Assembly: GCF_009729855.1 (NCBI RefSeq)
Contig: NZ_WODA01000023.1
Location: 62,001-126,000, forward strand
Reading direction: 5' to 3'
DNA from: Agromyces luteolus
GTDB taxonomy: Bacteria; Actinomycetota; Actinomycetes; Actinomycetales; Microbacteriaceae
DNA: 64,000 bases
The position numbers were made by a program, and so were the translations under genes. Of the stretch, positions 45,672 to 51,646 are shown piece by piece. Each line of letters begins with the position of its first letter. Position 1 is the first letter of the stretch. The notes beneath the pieces were generated by a model. That model made no database searches. It saw only the letters and a list, made by a program, of their open reading frames with translations, and was not told the DNA's origin.

Positions 45672-48600
45672 TCACCCGCGAGGGCTCGGCGCGGTGCCGA
45701 CCACGCCGAGCCCTCGCAGGACCTCTTCCGCCTCTTCGCGGATGGCGTGCGCCGCCGAGACGTCCTCCGTGAGGTCGGCCTCGATGAGCCGGAGCTGCGC
45801 GACCTCGAAGGCGAGCCCCTGCTCGCGCGCCTGCGCCAGCCCGGATGCGACGGCATCCCTCGCCTCCTCGGTGCGGCCGAGCGCGGCGAGGGCCAGCCCT
45901 CGGGTCCGCGCGATCGTGCTGCCGTAGAGCTCGGCCTCTCCCCCGGCCCGCTGCTCGGTCTCCGCCAGCGTGTCGAGCGCCTCCTGCGGGTCGCCCGCGA
46001 GCACGAGCCCGTGGGCGACGAGGATCGCCGCCTCGATCGCCGACTGGACCTGGCCCGTCCGGACCGCCTCGGCACGGAGCGCGACCAGCCGCTCCATCGC
46101 CCCGTCGTCCCCCCGGAGCAGGTGCAACCGCGCCAGCTGGATCTCGGCGAAGATCGCGGCATCCACCAGGCCGTGCGCCCTGAGCACGCGGACCGACGGC
46201 ACGAGGACCTCCTCCGCGTCGCCGAACCGCGCCTGGCTGACGAGCACCTCGCCGATGTTCGCACCGCAGGTGGCCGCCTCCGCTTCGTTGCCGGCGCGCA
46301 GGAAGGCGTCCCGGGCGCGGGCGTAGTAGCCCACCGCCTCCTCCCACTCCCCCTGCCAGTAGGCCTGGCCGCCGAGGTTGTTCGTCACGACGGCCGTGCC
46401 GGGGAGGTCTCCGAGCTCCTCGTAGATGGCGAGGGCGCGTTCGCCGTAGACCGCCTTCGCGGAATGGCCCAGCATCACGTAGGCGGCGTCGAGCACCTGG
46501 TACGACCGGGCGAGGGCCTCGCGCTCGCCCGAGGCCTCCGCCTCGACCATCGCCTGCTCGGCGAGGCGCACCGCGGCGGGCATGTGCTCCTGCAACTGGC
46601 GGATCTGGGCGTTCAGCGCATCCAGGCGCGCGGTCGCACGGAGCGCCTCGTCGCTCCCGATCTCGGCGACGAGGCGCCGACCGATCGTCAGGTCCCGATA
46701 CGCCGGGGCATAGGCGCCCGTGCGCGCTCGCGCCCGAGCGCGCTTGAGCAGGACGTCTGCGGAGCGGATGGGTCGGTCCCGGACGAGGCGGCCGGCCTGC
46801 CGGTACGCGTCGACGGACTCCTCGAACATGCCGGCCTGCTCGAGCACGTCGCCGAGGGCCTCCGAGACGTCGGCGACCTGCGCGGGCGCGAGGTCCGGGA
46901 CGTAGCGCGAGGCGTTCAGCGCGCGCCGGTAGAAGGTCGCCGCTTCGAGGTTGGCGTAGATCTCCTTCGCGTGTTCGCCCGCATCGCGCGAGGAGGTCCA
47001 CGCCTCCGGCCACCGATGCGCCTCCGAGTAGTGGATCGACAGGAGCTCGACCTGGCCGGAGGGGTGGTCGGCGGACGATGCGGCGATGGCGTCGCCGACC
47101 TGCGCGTGCAGTGCGCGACGCGTCTTGAACGGCAGGCCCGCGTACGCGACGTCCCGGATCAGGCTGTGCTGGAACTGCACCCAGCCGTTCGCATCGACGG
47201 AGAGGAATCCGCCGAGGCGTCGGAGGATCTTCACCTGCCGGCCGACATCGGTCGCGGTCACGCCGAGGACGGCCGGCATGTGCTCCTGCCGGAAGCCGGC
47301 GCCGAGCACCGCGAGGCGCCGCAGGAGGTTGCGCTCGGCCGGGGGCAACCGGTCGATGCGCGCGGCGATGAGTCCCTCGATGGACTGCGGGAGGTAGTCG
47401 ACCGCGGCGCCGGCGCGGAGCACCTGGAGGAGCTCGAGCAGGAAGAGCGGACTCCCCTCCGCTCTCGCGGCGAGCGCGGCCACCTGGTTCGGAAGCAGGG
47501 GGGTGCCGAGCGTGGCGCGCTGGATCAGCACCGTGGCCTGGGCGAGGTCGAGCGGCGGCAGGTCGACGTGGGTGACCGCCGGTCCCTCGGCCGCCACGAA
47601 GCCCTGGTCGCCGGGCTGCCGGCTGACGATGACGAGCCACGGCACGTCCTCGACCTCGGCGATGAGCGCTCCCAGGAGGTCCCTGGACGCCTCGTCCATC
47701 CACTGGCCCTCCTCGATGAGGAAGAGCGTGGGCTCGCGGACGGTGGCGCGGAGCAGCTCCGCGATCGCGGAGCGGGTGCGGGCGGGGCGGAACTGGTCGT
47801 CCAGCTGCGCGACCTCCGCCGATTCCGGCAGGGTGAGTCCGAGCGGCGTGCCGATGAGGGCGAGCCAGGGCTCGAGACCGGGCGCGTGCGTGCGCACCAC
47901 CTCGGCGAGCGCGACCCCGGTCGACTCCTGATCGAGGCCCTCCAGCTTCCACGCCGCCCGGAGCAGCGATCGGAACGGGAAGTACGGCGTCGCCAACTGG
48001 TAGAGCCGGCACTCGGCGGTGATCACCCGCTCGGGCTTGGCGGCGGCGAGCAGTTCCGCGAGGAGGCGTGACTTGCCCATGCCCACGTCGGCCGTGACAT
48101 CGATCATCCGGCCGCGCCCCTCGCGGGCATCGGCCCATGCCCCGGTGAGGATCGCCAGCTCGGCATCGCGGCCGATCAGCGGGGTCGCGCCGAACTGCTC
48201 GCCGGTGCGGCTCCCCCTCGGCTCGCCCACCGAGTACGCCTGCACCGGCTGCTGCTTGCCCTTGACGGCGAACGGCTCGCACTCGGTGATCCGGAAGGTC
48301 GTGCGCGACGCCTCGAGCACGTCGCTCGTGACGAACACCTCACCGGCCGGCGCCGCGGCCATGATGCGGGCGGCGAGGTTCACCGCGTCGCCCATGATCG
48401 TGTAGGTGCGCCGGTAGGCGGGGCCGACGGCCCCGGCGAAGACGTGCCCGGACGTGATGCCCATCCGGACGGGAAGGTCGCGGGGCGCGGCGTGTCGGAT
48501 CGCCCGCGCGGCGAGCAGCATCTGCTCCTCGTTGTTGCCCGCGGTGTCTGGAACGCCCGCGGTGAGGATGATCTTGCCGCCGTCGGGAGCGATGTCGGTC

Positions 48601-49493
48601 GCGAGGAAGGTGACGCCGCGGTCGTCGGCGCACCGCTGCACTTCCGCGACCAGCTCGTCGAGCACGCCGGCCGCGTGCGTCGGATCCTCCGCCACGAGCC
48701 GGTCGAACCCCGCATAATGCAGGAAGGCGATGGCCGCAGGCCGATGCTCCGGGTCGATGGTGCCGGACTCCAGCGTCCGCCGGAGCCCGACGGGCACGAA
48801 CTGCCGCAGGTCGACCTCGGGCGACTCGGCGGCGAGGAATCCCGACTGCTCGACCTGCGGTCCGCGGCGCAGCAGGCGGCCGGGCCCGCGCACGGCGCCC
48901 ACGCTCGAGCGCGGCAGCAGGGCTGCGGTCTCCGGGCTCAGCAGGATCTGCGATGCGGTCGCCGCGCCCTCCATCTGCACCGTCCGCGTCGCGCCGGGCC
49001 CGGCGACGATGAACTCGCGATGCGAGCCGCCGACGAGGAAGAAGTCGAACGAGCCGCTGTGGATCCCGACCGACATCCGCAGGCTCACGTTGCCCGCGCT
49101 CGTCGCGAACCCGTCGATCCGCCGCAGCTCTGCGCGCATGTCGTGCGCGGCGACCGCGGCCCGGAGGTGGTGGTCCTCGCCCGTGAACAGCAGCAGCTGC
49201 GCGTCGCCGCCGAACTTGAGCAGGTTCGCGCCGAACGCGTAGGCGGCCGGGAGCAGTCGATCGAACGTGCCGTCGATCACCTCCGTGACCTCCTCGGCCC
49301 CGACGTCGCCGTGCCGCGCGAGCCGCTCGGACATGCGCGTGAATCCCGAGATGTCGACGAGCACCATCGTGCCCTCGACGGCCTGGTGCAGCAGGCCCGG
49401 GTGCTCCGCGTCCCAGTAGCGCACCAGCCGGGGCACGTACGGCTGCAGCACACCGGTCGTGCCGGTGTCCGCTGGCGAGCCGGGCGCGTTCAT
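45672..49493 (-). CDS. Class III adenylate/guanylate cyclase with AAA-type ATPase and TPR domains (soluble-AC-like)
   Basis: This 1273-residue protein has two cyclase domains, an ATPase and TPR repeats, as in mammalian soluble adenylyl cyclase. Domain 1 (about 40-200) keeps both metal aspartates (Asp47 in VDISGF, Asp97 in FGGDAQ) but lacks the NxxxR segment. Domain 2 (about 250-400) lacks them (His259, Lys307) but keeps GDAVNLAARI. They thus look like complementary halves of one active site. The ATPase has Walker A 468-475 (first Gly is Ala), and repeats from about 850 to the end look like TPR. The ATG at 49493 has a GGAGG site. The signal it senses is unknown. Confidence 0.9.
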   Translation of the reverse strand: MNAPGSPADTGTTGVLQPYVPRLVRYWDAEHPGLLHQAVEGTMVLVDISGFTRMSERLARHGDVGAEEVTEVIDGTFDRLLPAAYAFGANLLKFGGDAQLLLFTGEDHHLRAAVAAHDMRAELRRIDGFATSAGNVSLRMSVGIHSGSFDFFLVGGSHREFIVAGPGATRTVQMEGAATASQILLSPETAALLPRSSVGAVRGPGRLLRRGPQVEQSGFLAAESPEVDLRQFVPVGLRRTLESGTIDPEHRPAAIAFLHYAGFDRLVAEDPTHAAGVLDELVAEVQRCADDRGVTFLATDIAPDGGKIILTAGVPDTAGNNEEQMLLAARAIRHAAPRDLPVRMGITSGHVFAGAVGPAYRRTYTIMGDAVNLAARIMAAAPAGEVFVTSDVLEASRTTFRITECEPFAVKGKQQPVQAYSVGEPRGSRTGEQFGATPLIGRDAELAILTGAWADAREGRGRMIDVTADVGMGKSRLLAELLAAAKPERVITAECRLYQLATPYFPFRSLLRAAWKLEGLDQESTGVALAEVVRTHAPGLEPWLALIGTPLGLTLPESAEVAQLDDQFRPARTRSAIAELLRATVREPTLFLIEEGQWMDEASRDLLGALIAEVEDVPWLVIVSRQPGDQGFVAAEGPAVTHVDLPPLDLAQATVLIQRATLGTPLLPNQVAALAARAEGSPLFLLELLQVLRAGAAVDYLPQSIEGLIAARIDRLPPAERNLLRRLAVLGAGFRQEHMPAVLGVTATDVGRQVKILRRLGGFLSVDANGWVQFQHSLIRDVAYAGLPFKTRRALHAQVGDAIAASSADHPSGQVELLSIHYSEAHRWPEAWTSSRDAGEHAKEIYANLEAATFYRRALNASRYVPDLAPAQVADVSEALGDVLEQAGMFEESVDAYRQAGRLVRDRPIRSADVLLKRARARARTGAYAPAYRDLTIGRRLVAEIGSDEALRATARLDALNAQIRQLQEHMPAAVRLAEQAMVEAEASGEREALARSYQVLDAAYVMLGHSAKAVYGERALAIYEELGDLPGTAVVTNNLGGQAYWQGEWEEAVGYYARARDAFLRAGNEAEAATCGANIGEVLVSQARFGDAEEVLVPSVRVLRAHGLVDAAIFAEIQLARLHLLRGDDGAMERLVALRAEAVRTGQVQSAIEAAILVAHGLVLAGDPQEALDTLAETEQRAGGEAELYGSTIARTRGLALAALGRTEEARDAVASGLAQAREQGLAFEVAQLRLIEADLTEDVSAAHAIREEAEEVLRGLGVVGTAPSPRG
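45679..45716. terminator. Bidirectional hairpin between convergent genes
   Basis: 13-bp perfect arms (45679-45691, 45704-45716) with a 12-base loop lie at the junction of the convergent secreted-protein and cyclase genes, inside the last codons of the latter. It probably stops transcription in both directions. Confidence 0.7.
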
Positions 49494-49607
49494 TGCGGGG
49501 ACCTCCCTCCGTGTCAATCTAGGCCACGACCCCGCTCGCTGCCGTGAGCAGCGCTGCCGTCGGCGGCATCCGTCCCGCGATCCCGCGACGCGGCGCAGGC
49601 TGGGGTC

Positions 49608-50231
49608 ATGACCGATCGAGAGTCCCCACTCGTCCAGCCCATCGACGCCGAACTCACCCGGCGGCTCTTCCACGAGCGCGTCATCGTGCTCGGCGACGAG
49701 CTCGACCAGGCCGGCGGCAACCGCATCTGCGCCCAGCTCGTCGCGCTCGCCGCCGACGATGCGCGCCGCGACATCCGCTTCTGGATCAACTCGCCCGGCG
49801 GGTCGGTGCCCGCCATGCTCGCGATCCACGACGTGATGCGCGCGATCCCGAACGACGTCGCGACGATCGCGGTCGGCATGGCCGCGAGCGCCGGGCAGTT
49901 CCTGCTCACGGCGGGCACGCCCGGCAAGCGCGCGGCGCTGCCCCACTCGCGGATCCTGCTGCACCAGGGTTCCGCGGGGATCGGCGGCACCGCGGTCGAC
50001 GTCGAGCTCCAGGCCGACGACCTCCGGTACACGCGCGACACCGTGCTCGGGCTGATCGCGCGCTACACCGGCCAGTCCGTCGAGCGCGTCCGCGAGGACT
50101 CGCTCCGCGACCGCTGGTACACCGCGGAGGCCGCCGTGGACTACGGGTTCATCGACCACGTGACCGAGCGGCTCGACGAGCTGTTCCCGCTGGAGCCGCG
50201 CGCGGTCGCGGGGCTGGGGGTGTCGGCATGA
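49608..50231 (+). CDS. clpP: ClpP-like ATP-dependent protease proteolytic subunit (catalytic)
   Basis: This 207-residue serine peptidase assembles into a ring chamber fed by Clp ATPases. The triad is intact: Ser94 in GMAASAGQ, His119 in LPHSRILLHQ, Asp168 in SLRDRWY. There is no clear propeptide. Its stop overlaps the start of a second clpP gene by ATGA, so the two are coupled and likely form mixed rings. This looks like an accessory pair, like streptomycete clpP3-clpP4; the housekeeping pair usually sits beside tig and clpX, not seen here. A convergent ClgR-like gene follows. Confidence 0.93.
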   Translation: MTDRESPLVQPIDAELTRRLFHERVIVLGDELDQAGGNRICAQLVALAADDARRDIRFWINSPGGSVPAMLAIHDVMRAIPNDVATIAVGMAASAGQFLLTAGTPGKRAALPHSRILLHQGSAGIGGTAVDVELQADDLRYTRDTVLGLIARYTGQSVERVREDSLRDRWYTAEAAVDYGFIDHVTERLDELFPLEPRAVAGLGVSA

Positions 50232-50854
50232 GCTCGTACACGATCCCCTACGTCGTCGAGAAGCGCAGCGGGGTCGAGCGCTCGCTCGACGTGTACAGCC
50301 GACTGCTCTCGGAACGCATCGTCTACCTCGGCACCGAGATCGACGACGGCGTCGCGAACGTGCTCATCGCGCAGTTCCTCCACCTCGCGTCCGACTCGAG
50401 CGAGTCGCCCATCAGCCTGTACGTGAACTCGCCGGGCGGCTCGCCGAGTGCGGCGCTCGCGGTCTACGACACGATGCGGCACATCAGGCCGGATGTCGCG
50501 ACCACGTGCGTCGGGAGGGCGGGCGGGCCGGCCGCGGTCCTCCTCGCCGGCGGCGCGCCGGGGCAGCGCTCGATGCTGCCGCACAGCACGGTGACGCTGC
50601 ACCAGCCGTCCACGCAGGGCCGCGGCACCGTCCCCGACCTGATCCTGCACGCCGACGAGGTGCTGCGTGTCCGCGCCGAACTCGAGGCGGCGCTCGCGGC
50701 GGACACCGGCCGATCGGCCGAGGCCATCCGCCTCGACACCGACCGCGACCTCATCCTGCCCGCGCGGGCCGCCGTCGACTACGGCCTCGCCGACCACGTG
50801 CTCGCGGCGCAGGCGGCCGTCGGCCTCGGGCCCGGTCAGGCGGCGAGGAGGTAG
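50228..50854 (+). CDS. ClpP-like subunit lacking the catalytic serine
   Basis: This 208-residue ClpP homologue keeps the YVNSPGGS strand, the His (LPHSTVTLHQPS, His125) and the Asp (TDRDLILPA, Asp174). In the nucleophile loop CVGRAGGPAAVLL, however, Gly100 sits where Ser is expected (compare GMAASAG in the partner). It should therefore be inactive by itself, like the ClpR subunits of plant and cyanobacterial Clp complexes, and may set the shape or docking surface of a mixed ring. The ATG overlaps the upstream clpP stop. The 3' end overlaps the convergent ClgR-like gene by 19 bases. Confidence 0.88.
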   Translation: MSSYTIPYVVEKRSGVERSLDVYSRLLSERIVYLGTEIDDGVANVLIAQFLHLASDSSESPISLYVNSPGGSPSAALAVYDTMRHIRPDVATTCVGRAGGPAAVLLAGGAPGQRSMLPHSTVTLHQPSTQGRGTVPDLILHADEVLRVRAELEAALAADTGRSAEAIRLDTDRDLILPARAAVDYGLADHVLAAQAAVGLGPGQAARR

Positions 50855-51249
50855 GCGTTCGTCGGCGTCGGGGCGCCGCTCCACGGGGCGGTCGCCGGCG
50901 CCGGCGACGCGGCCCGATGCAGCCCCGCGACCTCGCTCGACGGCGCCTCGTGCACCCCGCGCACCGCGAGCCTGCCGGCGACGCGGCCCACGACGTCGAG
51001 GAGTTCGAGCCCCAGCGCGTCGGCGACCGCGCCGAGCACCTCGGACGACGCCTCCTTCCGGCCGCGTTCGACCTCCGACAGGTACTGTGGCGACACCCCT
51101 GCCGTCCGCGCGACCTCGGTCAGGATGCGCTCCTGGTCGAGCCGCTCGTCGCGCAGCACCGCGCCGAGCACGTCGCGCCACAGCGGCCTCGCTCGACGCG
51201 GACGACTCTGGTCGGTGCGCTCGCCCGGGAACTCGATCGTCTCGCCCAT
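50836..51249 (-). CDS. clgR: ClgR/PopR-like XRE-family regulator with C-terminal LAA degron
   Basis: This 137-residue protein has a helix-turn-helix at about residues 35-95 (LTEVARTAGVSPQYLSEVER, then GRKEASSEVLGAVADALGL). That matches the ClgR group of Clp gene activators in actinobacteria. It ends in YLLAA. In Streptomyces and Corynebacterium ClgR-type proteins are themselves degraded by Clp through C-terminal alanines, so a feedback loop with the neighbouring clpP pair is likely. It is convergent with clpP and overlaps its 3' end. A TAGCCT hexamer six bases before the ATG suggests a leaderless mRNA. Confidence 0.88.
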   Translation of the reverse strand: MGETIEFPGERTDQSRPRRARPLWRDVLGAVLRDERLDQERILTEVARTAGVSPQYLSEVERGRKEASSEVLGAVADALGLELLDVVGRVAGRLAVRGVHEAPSSEVAGLHRAASPAPATAPWSGAPTPTNAYLLAA

Positions 51250-51343
51250 GAGCCGAGGCTACGCAGGCGGGTCGGCGCGCGACAGGCCGATCCGCTCACA
51301 GCAGAACGGGCGGGCGCGGTCGAGGCCGGTCGCGAGCCGGCGG

Positions 51344-51646
51344 CTACGCCGTCTGGTAGGTGAGGCAGTCCGCGTCGTCGGCGCCCGGCCCGATGCGGAC
51401 TGCGGCCGCGTGGCACTCGAGCGCATCGTTGTGGATGCACTCCGCACGCTGGCAGGCGCCGACGTGGGTGACCACCTTGTCGAGCCCGCCCTTCGTGCCG
51501 AGCGGGATGAACGTCGCGCACTCGGCGTCCCCGACGCTGCCCGCGATCGTGACCGCCGCGGCATGGCAGTGCGAGTGGTCGTTGTAGGAGCAGCCGGCGA
51601 CCGAGCACTCGGTGACGGCAGGCAGTTCATCGAGGGTCATGCTCAT
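51344..51646 (-). CDS. DUF1540 protein with two Cys-rich repeats
   Basis: This 100-residue protein is made of two similar repeats, each with four cysteines and a histidine pair region (CSVAGCSYNDHSHCHAAAV ... C and CQRAECIHNDALECHAAAV ... C), the pattern of DUF1540. Such Cys/His sets are likely to bind zinc. The ATG has a perfect AGGAGGTCGCC ribosome site, so it is well expressed when transcribed. Function unknown; a metal store or small regulatory protein is possible. Confidence 0.88.
   Translation of the reverse strand: MSMTLDELPAVTECSVAGCSYNDHSHCHAAAVTIAGSVGDAECATFIPLGTKGGLDKVVTHVGACQRAECIHNDALECHAAAVRIGPGADDADCLTYQTA

Follow-up and report, generated by a model that had tools for sequence, protein, structure and literature searches.

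A serine-less ClpP4-type subunit in the clpP3-clpP4-popR module of Agromyces luteolus, and predicted one-sided loss of catalysis among its relatives

The system closest to the one described here is the clpP3 clpP4 popR module of Streptomyces, a naming that we take from papers and not from the annotation of the loci compared. According to those papers, Streptomyces PopR is both an activator and a ClpP1P2 substrate, two C-terminal alanines are reported as a degradation signal, and the S. lividans PopR operator occurs in tandem, as TCTGCC-3N-GGCGAATCTGCC-3N-GGCAGA (PMC9775585). For ClpP1P2, M. tuberculosis chaperones are reported to bind ClpP2 only, the subunit with the better conserved pocket and N-loop (PMC4416901). 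In S. hawaiiensis, ClpP2 S131A is reported to give full activity together with ClpP1, whereas activity is abolished when ClpP1 is the subunit that lacks its serine; changes to the ClpP2 pocket halted degradation (PMC9765437). Within the literature searched, which included PMC12607617, PMC9765437, PMC4416901, PMC9775585, PMC8182300 and PMC7966870, we found no biochemistry of a ClpP3P4 core and no mention that ClpP4 lacks triad residues, although a remark in Viala 2000 or Bellier and Mazodier 2004 is possible. Against that literature the module itself is known, and triad loss confined to one subunit across pairs is what was unreported.

The clpP pair and its serine-less subunit

We analysed a window of 64,000 nucleotides from Agromyces luteolus (contig NZ_WODA01000023.1), to which all positions refer unless another contig is named. 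On its forward strand lie clpP-A, a clpP3-type gene for the catalytic subunit (49608-50231; 207 aa; PF00574, 198.7 bits), and clpP-B, a clpP4-type gene for a serine-less subunit (50228-50854; 208 aa). The original prediction described a coupled pair with one complete and one incomplete triad. Alignment and sequence agree with it: the stop of clpP-A and the start of clpP-B share ATGA, and Ser94 (49887-49889), His119 (49962-49964) and Asp168 (50109-50111) of clpP-A, with the nucleophile loop GMAASAGQ, occupy the triad columns. The clpP-B product matches the whole PF00574 domain at 196.5 bits (cut-off 20.2), as expected for a member of the ClpP fold. Its loop reads GRAGGPAA against GQAASAAA in canonical ClpP, placing Gly100 (codon GGG, 50525-50527) in the nucleophile column, while His125 (50600-50602) and Asp174 (50747-50749, preceded by D172-R173) are retained, all at the residues and coordinates first proposed. 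Hence clpP-A has the Ser-His-Asp of an active peptidase and clpP-B, with Gly-His-Asp, does not. An AlphaFold model of clpP-B, built on a 63-row alignment, reached pLDDT 89.5 and includes the N-terminal hairpin (19 close homologs alone gave pLDDT 44); the top Foldseek match was 5e0s_B, from a ClpP1P2 crystal, and the TM score to a ClpP1P2 chain was 0.87. Four ClpP matches were found in the genome, namely this pair and a separate, fully catalytic canonical clpP1P2 (C18:281320-282553), near which lies a match (C18:279977) that we call ClpX-type from its length and place.

We asked whether clpP-B might be a sequencing error, as the original prediction allowed, or a decaying relic. In an alignment of the query with the best 120 of 6586 homologs found, the nucleophile column of the 121 rows holds Gly in 110, Ser in 10 and Trp in one; a close homolog is present in 50 of 60 genus genomes, counting its own, and the nearest named homologs among the matches listed are from Agromyces. 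Across 34 Agromyces loci (NG86, 561 pairs each), median dN/dS was 0.254 for clpP-B and 0.326 for clpP-A, values of which, in such GC-rich genes, only the comparison between the two counts. As judged from these sequences, clpP-B is under purifying selection within Agromyces, with constraint at least equal to that of clpP-A. The conserved glycine and this constraint together mean that the gene is neither a sequencing error nor a pseudogene. Some B loops in other loci carry a serine one residue later (GQAVASAA), which would suit a substitute nucleophile; however, GRAGGPAA contains no Ser, Cys or Thr anywhere, the median dN/dS is 0.254, and the docking residues described below are nearly invariant. 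A relic, or a subunit with a substitute nucleophile, is therefore very improbable. We conclude that clpP-B encodes a real, conserved and constrained serine-less ClpP4-type subunit of a PopR module.

The PopR-type regulator and its operator-like sites

A popR-like HTH gene (50836-51249, minus strand; 137 aa) converges on the pair. With an accessory pair beside a housekeeping clpP1P2 and a convergent HTH gene, the locus is, by its gene content, the known actinobacterial clpP3-clpP4-popR unit. A clpP-B profile distinguishes accessory from housekeeping ClpP subunits. It found accessory B in 60 of 198 genomes of the order (E <= 3.3e-79) and a match in 83 of 296 genomes of the class (E <= 4.8e-87), one of which (G427) resembles a lone pair; the two genome samples overlap. 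A convergent regulator follows the clpP pair in 151 loci, mostly within 200 bases, and named members of this set come from Streptomyces, Nocardiopsis, Actinoplanes, Asanoa, Cellulomonas, Nocardioides and Sphaerisporangium. Five of the six named Streptomyces loci have the convergent order (L044, L045, L048, L049 and L051), and in the sixth (L046) the regulator is 3.3 kb away. At L178 (G124), which has a B of the Gly type, the regulator is not convergent but lies downstream, on the strand that carries the pair. A solitary clpP-like gene in a Streptomyces sp. (L072:3884-4612) has the loop GQAGPAAA, with Pro for Ser, and VIRQP, with Arg for His; the surrounding 8.6 kb hold no A partner or regulator, making it a triad-deficient ClpP outside the module.

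The popR-like gene overlaps clpP-B by 19 bases (50836-50854), as originally noted. It had been suggested that this antisense overlap adds a regulatory layer, an idea that we rejected since the overlap is not conserved: it occurs in only 27 of the 151 loci, one of these being an overlong frame. The C-terminal LLAA (codons 50839-50850, minus strand) was also read correctly; 121 of 150 homologs end in LAA and 134 in AA. As a sequence motif, this Ala-Ala end is a known Clp degron type, and the proposed association of a serine-less ClpP and a catalytic partner with an Ala-Ala-ended regulator is supported. The name ClgR-like, in contrast, did not survive. Against the ClgR model NF041677 (cut-off 170) the regulator scored 75 (74.8) bits and the second HTH of the genome 99.8, both below the cut-off; this better fit of the other HTH, together with the PopR-type operators flanking the module, identifies the regulator as PopR, a paralog of ClgR. 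This second HTH, of the ClgR family (L296; G000:C24:211714-211953), ends in DADMMVR, without Ala-Ala.

Counting palindromes without a preset motif, we found TCTGC-N5-GCAGA before clpP-A in 71 of 166 loci; across 30 shuffled sets, no palindrome exceeded a count of 8. The motif is that of the operator published for S. lividans PopR (PMC9775585). Two abutting, degenerate candidate palindromes precede clpP-A in the window: GCTGCCGTGAGCAGC (49538-49552, plus strand), 70 bases before the gene, and GCTGCCGTCGGCGGC (49553-49567, plus strand). With a position weight matrix (PWM) trained on upstream regions of clpP-A, the first scored 12.7, third of 63986 window positions, and the second 8.9. Each copy has 9 of 12 operator bases, and a level of nine or more was reached by 155 of 830 shuffles. 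Although these copies are degenerate, their tandem 15-base layout, which matches the published S. lividans one (PMC9775585), and their equivalent place in related Agromyces speak for them as putative operators. A very long minus-strand frame (45672-49493), judged by eye to be cyclase-ATPase-repeat-like and to start where given, is divergent from clpP-A, so that the tandem sites lie in a shared promoter region. At least 10 of 12 operator bases were present before clpP-A in 121 of the 162 loci of the triad set, compared with 20 of 830 shuffles and none of 22 canonical clpP1 genes, these controls belonging to a count over a different 166-locus set that includes L245 and L247-L249 and leaves out four loci with short upstream regions.

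The highest PWM score in the whole window (18.0) belongs to a third operator-like palindrome, TCTGCTGTGAGCGGA (51291-51305, minus strand), 42 bases before the popR start. Beyond it, on the strand of popR, 51344-51646 encodes a 100-aa DUF1540 protein (PF07561). Among 145 loci, 82 have a pre-regulator site scoring at least 12, against 1.1% of shuffles; the site is present in 29/29 loci examined of the Agromyces locus's own family (f1), in 1/8 of family f37 and in 1/5 named Streptomycetaceae loci. Its presence in every f1 locus examined suggests that autoregulation by PopR is probably part of the circuit in Agromyces. Genome-wide searches for the operator were unspecific, with 146 matches at two mismatches against 464 in the reversed control, and 160 against 825 with a looser pattern; since the controls exceed the matches, we claim no regulon.

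Triad loss in one subunit of the accessory pair

We compared the catalytic residues in 166 accessory pairs, selected for the presence of both genes. The A triad was intact in all 165 readable rows, with one further row gapped. In contrast, the triad of B was incomplete in 112 pairs, lacking one or more residues, and complete in 54; Ser was lost in 87, His in 28 and Asp in 37, with Ser or His affected in 103 and Asp alone in nine. The triads of canonical ClpP1 and ClpP2 were both intact in 22/22 genomes. Given that B retains a full triad in 54 pairs, triad loss is not needed for function. The Asp-only changes need not inactivate, since Listeria ClpP1, which has an odd triad with Asn172, is reported to be active in a hetero-complex.

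Several loci were set aside before the 166 were fixed: L252, L254 and L263, which belong to the 151 convergent-regulator loci and whose B reads Ser-His; L036, which is truncated (B Gly-His); duplicate loci; and L245, L247-L251, L253, L255, L257 and L259-L261, where the regulator is absent and score or place suggests the only pair. In this last group B reads Ser-His-Asp, with the Asp taken at column 170, not 174. L072, L256 and L258 have no A and stand outside the pair set, and the loci sampled exclude 17/50 accessory matches of the genus search, 2/60 of the order search and 9/83 of the class search.

Replacements differ between lineages. B of Streptomyces keeps Ser and has Gly for His in 6/6 named pairs and in 8/8 of a coded genus (g89) that groups with them. 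Glu stands at the Ser position in 9/9 loci of genus g107, Phe in one locus, and Trp in five Nocardioides-like loci (one named), whose genera g109 and g160 also include intact B. All eight f7 loci have Ala for Ser together with Arg for His. An in-frame TGA, and hence recoding, was considered for some B homologs whose search rows carry one TGA; for the f7 loci, whose open frames were compared, it was rejected, as the match overruns the C-terminal stop. By genus label (55, in which some named genera may duplicate coded ones), B is lost throughout in 32, intact throughout in 20 and mixed in three; Agromyces is over-represented, with 33 of the 166 pairs from its own genus code. Loss of Ser or His, mapped on a quick tree that was built from 102 B sequences with the trait columns left out, required six changes, five of them forced by starred (well-supported) branches, and a single clade of losers was rejected (p-AU 4.9e-6). 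When Asp was included, eight changes were needed and five forced. All trees were quick ones, of 192-210 columns. The residue after Ser in A was tried as a correlate of loss in B (raw counts: Ala with 65 lost and six intact B, Met with 23 lost and 56 intact) and dropped, as the tree offers too few independent pairs.

The strongest claim that these sequences carry is a recurrent, one-sided loss of predicted catalysis in the ClpP2-derived subunit. On balance we favour a wider reading, that in the class Actinomycetes the ClpP2-derived docking ring of a PopR-controlled reserve Clp has turned dead, ClpR-like, at least five times, Streptomyces ClpP4 included. Ser would have given way to Gly, Ala, Trp, Glu or Phe, and His to Gly, Arg, Thr, Ser or Asp; half-active particles would then be common in this class, instead of being peculiar to photosynthetic lineages.

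Descent, docking surface and comparison with known systems

Alignment with other actinobacterial ClpPs, which the original prediction had proposed, gave a placement. A quick tree was built from accessory subunits (25 A and 22 B) and from 10 sequences each of canonical ClpP1 and canonical ClpP2. Each group lay on one side of a branch, and the split of A with ClpP1 from B with ClpP2 had a support of 100. The accessory pair thus looks like a doubled clpP1P2 operon in which B is the ClpP2 copy. Two docking-pocket residues of clpP-B are Tyr65 (50420-50422) and His85 (50480-50482), which we take to be E. coli positions 62 and 82. The first is Tyr in 165/166 B and the second Phe, Tyr or His in 166/166. 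In A, position 82 is Phe in 14/166 and otherwise non-aromatic, mostly Leu, Ala or Ser, whereas canonical ClpP1 is aromatic there (Phe or Tyr) in 22/22 control genomes; the pocket contrast is therefore peculiar to A, which has gone further than ClpP1, and is not simply that of ClpP1 with ClpP2, which has been published for M. tuberculosis. The N-terminal hairpin Pro is present in 166/166 B against 29/166 A. At Asp172/Arg173, an acidic residue (Asp or Glu) is followed by Arg in 145/166 B, while Asp or Glu is found in only 49/166 A; the idea of this pair as an oligomerisation sensor comes from S. aureus work. Since the ClpP2 serine is dispensable in S. hawaiiensis ClpP1P2, its loss would have been a small step.

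A retained docking pocket without a nucleophile would also be expected of a decoy, which would reduce proteolysis either by binding to Clp ATPases or by poisoning the rings of ClpP1P2, and ClpP-ADEP is reported to disrupt ClpP1 complexes in S. hawaiiensis (PMC12607617). However, the catalytic residues of A are complete wherever readable, in pairs chosen for having both genes, and a pure decoy would have no need of an active partner; we consider this explanation improbable. The original prediction raised a mixed ring. In such a ring the A:B ratio would tune how many sites are active. Cyanobacterial ClpP3 and ClpR are described as mixing in this way. Translational coupling through ATGA would also fit, as would the plastid R-ring, which is reported to combine ClpP1 with ClpR1-4 (PMC7966870). 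Nevertheless, A and B are only ~44% identical, differ in N-terminus and pocket, and on the tree belong to lineages that had parted before there was an accessory pair; moreover, Streptomyces ClpP1P2 is reported as a hetero-tetradecamer whose subunits have separate roles (PMC9765437). Mixing within a ring is thus improbable, and stacked homo-rings are likelier by analogy with ClpP1P2.

Our preferred reading, which we consider probable, is that of a PopR-switched reserve Clp peptidase in which B forms a docking ring without catalysis, stacked on a catalytic A ring. The sequences show directly that Ser has become Gly, that this change is conserved and the gene constrained, that loss recurs in B only, that B keeps its docking residues, and that operator-like sites and a degron-like end are present; the assembly of A with B, the ATPase-binding face and activity we infer. 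PopR, bound to the tandem operators before clpP-A and to one before its own gene, would switch on the pair. A (ClpP3-type, on the ClpP1 side) would perform all cutting, and B (ClpP4-type, on the ClpP2 side), its nucleophile lost, would serve as docking and gating ring, binding the ATPase through its hairpin and hydrophobic pocket. Stacking of the B ring on the A ring would give a half-active particle with seven active and seven dead sites, which we regard as the likely form. Housekeeping ClpXP1P2 would destroy PopR via its LAA end, and we propose that the reserve pair would rise when ClpP1P2 fails. The pattern predicts that ClpP3 alone cuts and ClpP4 docks; homologs of B carry database names such as protease or proteolytic subunit. 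If true, the loss of one ring's active sites has been repeatedly tolerated or favoured. The pattern also matters for ClpP-directed drugs: a ligand that requires the active-site serine cannot label a ring without it.

The likeness to ClpP/ClpR drawn in the original prediction is probably one of function and not of descent. Like ClpR of cyanobacteria, plastids and apicoplasts, which is described as an incomplete-triad ClpP homolog, B stands beside an active ClpP. Unlike ClpR, it groups with actinobacterial ClpP2, which, on a tree without ClpR sequences, argues for a separate origin; the single cyanobacterial locus examined (L103) held only a ClpP with Ser, and no ClpR. In Listeria, too, one of the two ClpPs has an unusual triad, but the Asn172 of this ClpP1 reportedly gains activity in the hetero-complex, whereas Gly for Ser supplies no nucleophile. 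With the ClpP1P2 of M. tuberculosis and S. hawaiiensis the module would share a reported division of labour, in which ClpP2 docks the ATPase and, in S. hawaiiensis, ClpP1 catalyses; however, both canonical subunits keep their triads (22/22 pairs), and the loss in B is encoded in the gene. The S. lividans module is closest, with a two-gene clpP operon faced by a PopR-type regulator, an Ala-Ala end of the same type and tandem TCTGCC-3N-GGCAGA operators. It differs in B, which in Streptomyces keeps Ser and has Gly for His and in Agromyces lacks Ser, and in the site before popR, which Agromyces has and most of the Streptomyces loci compared lack.
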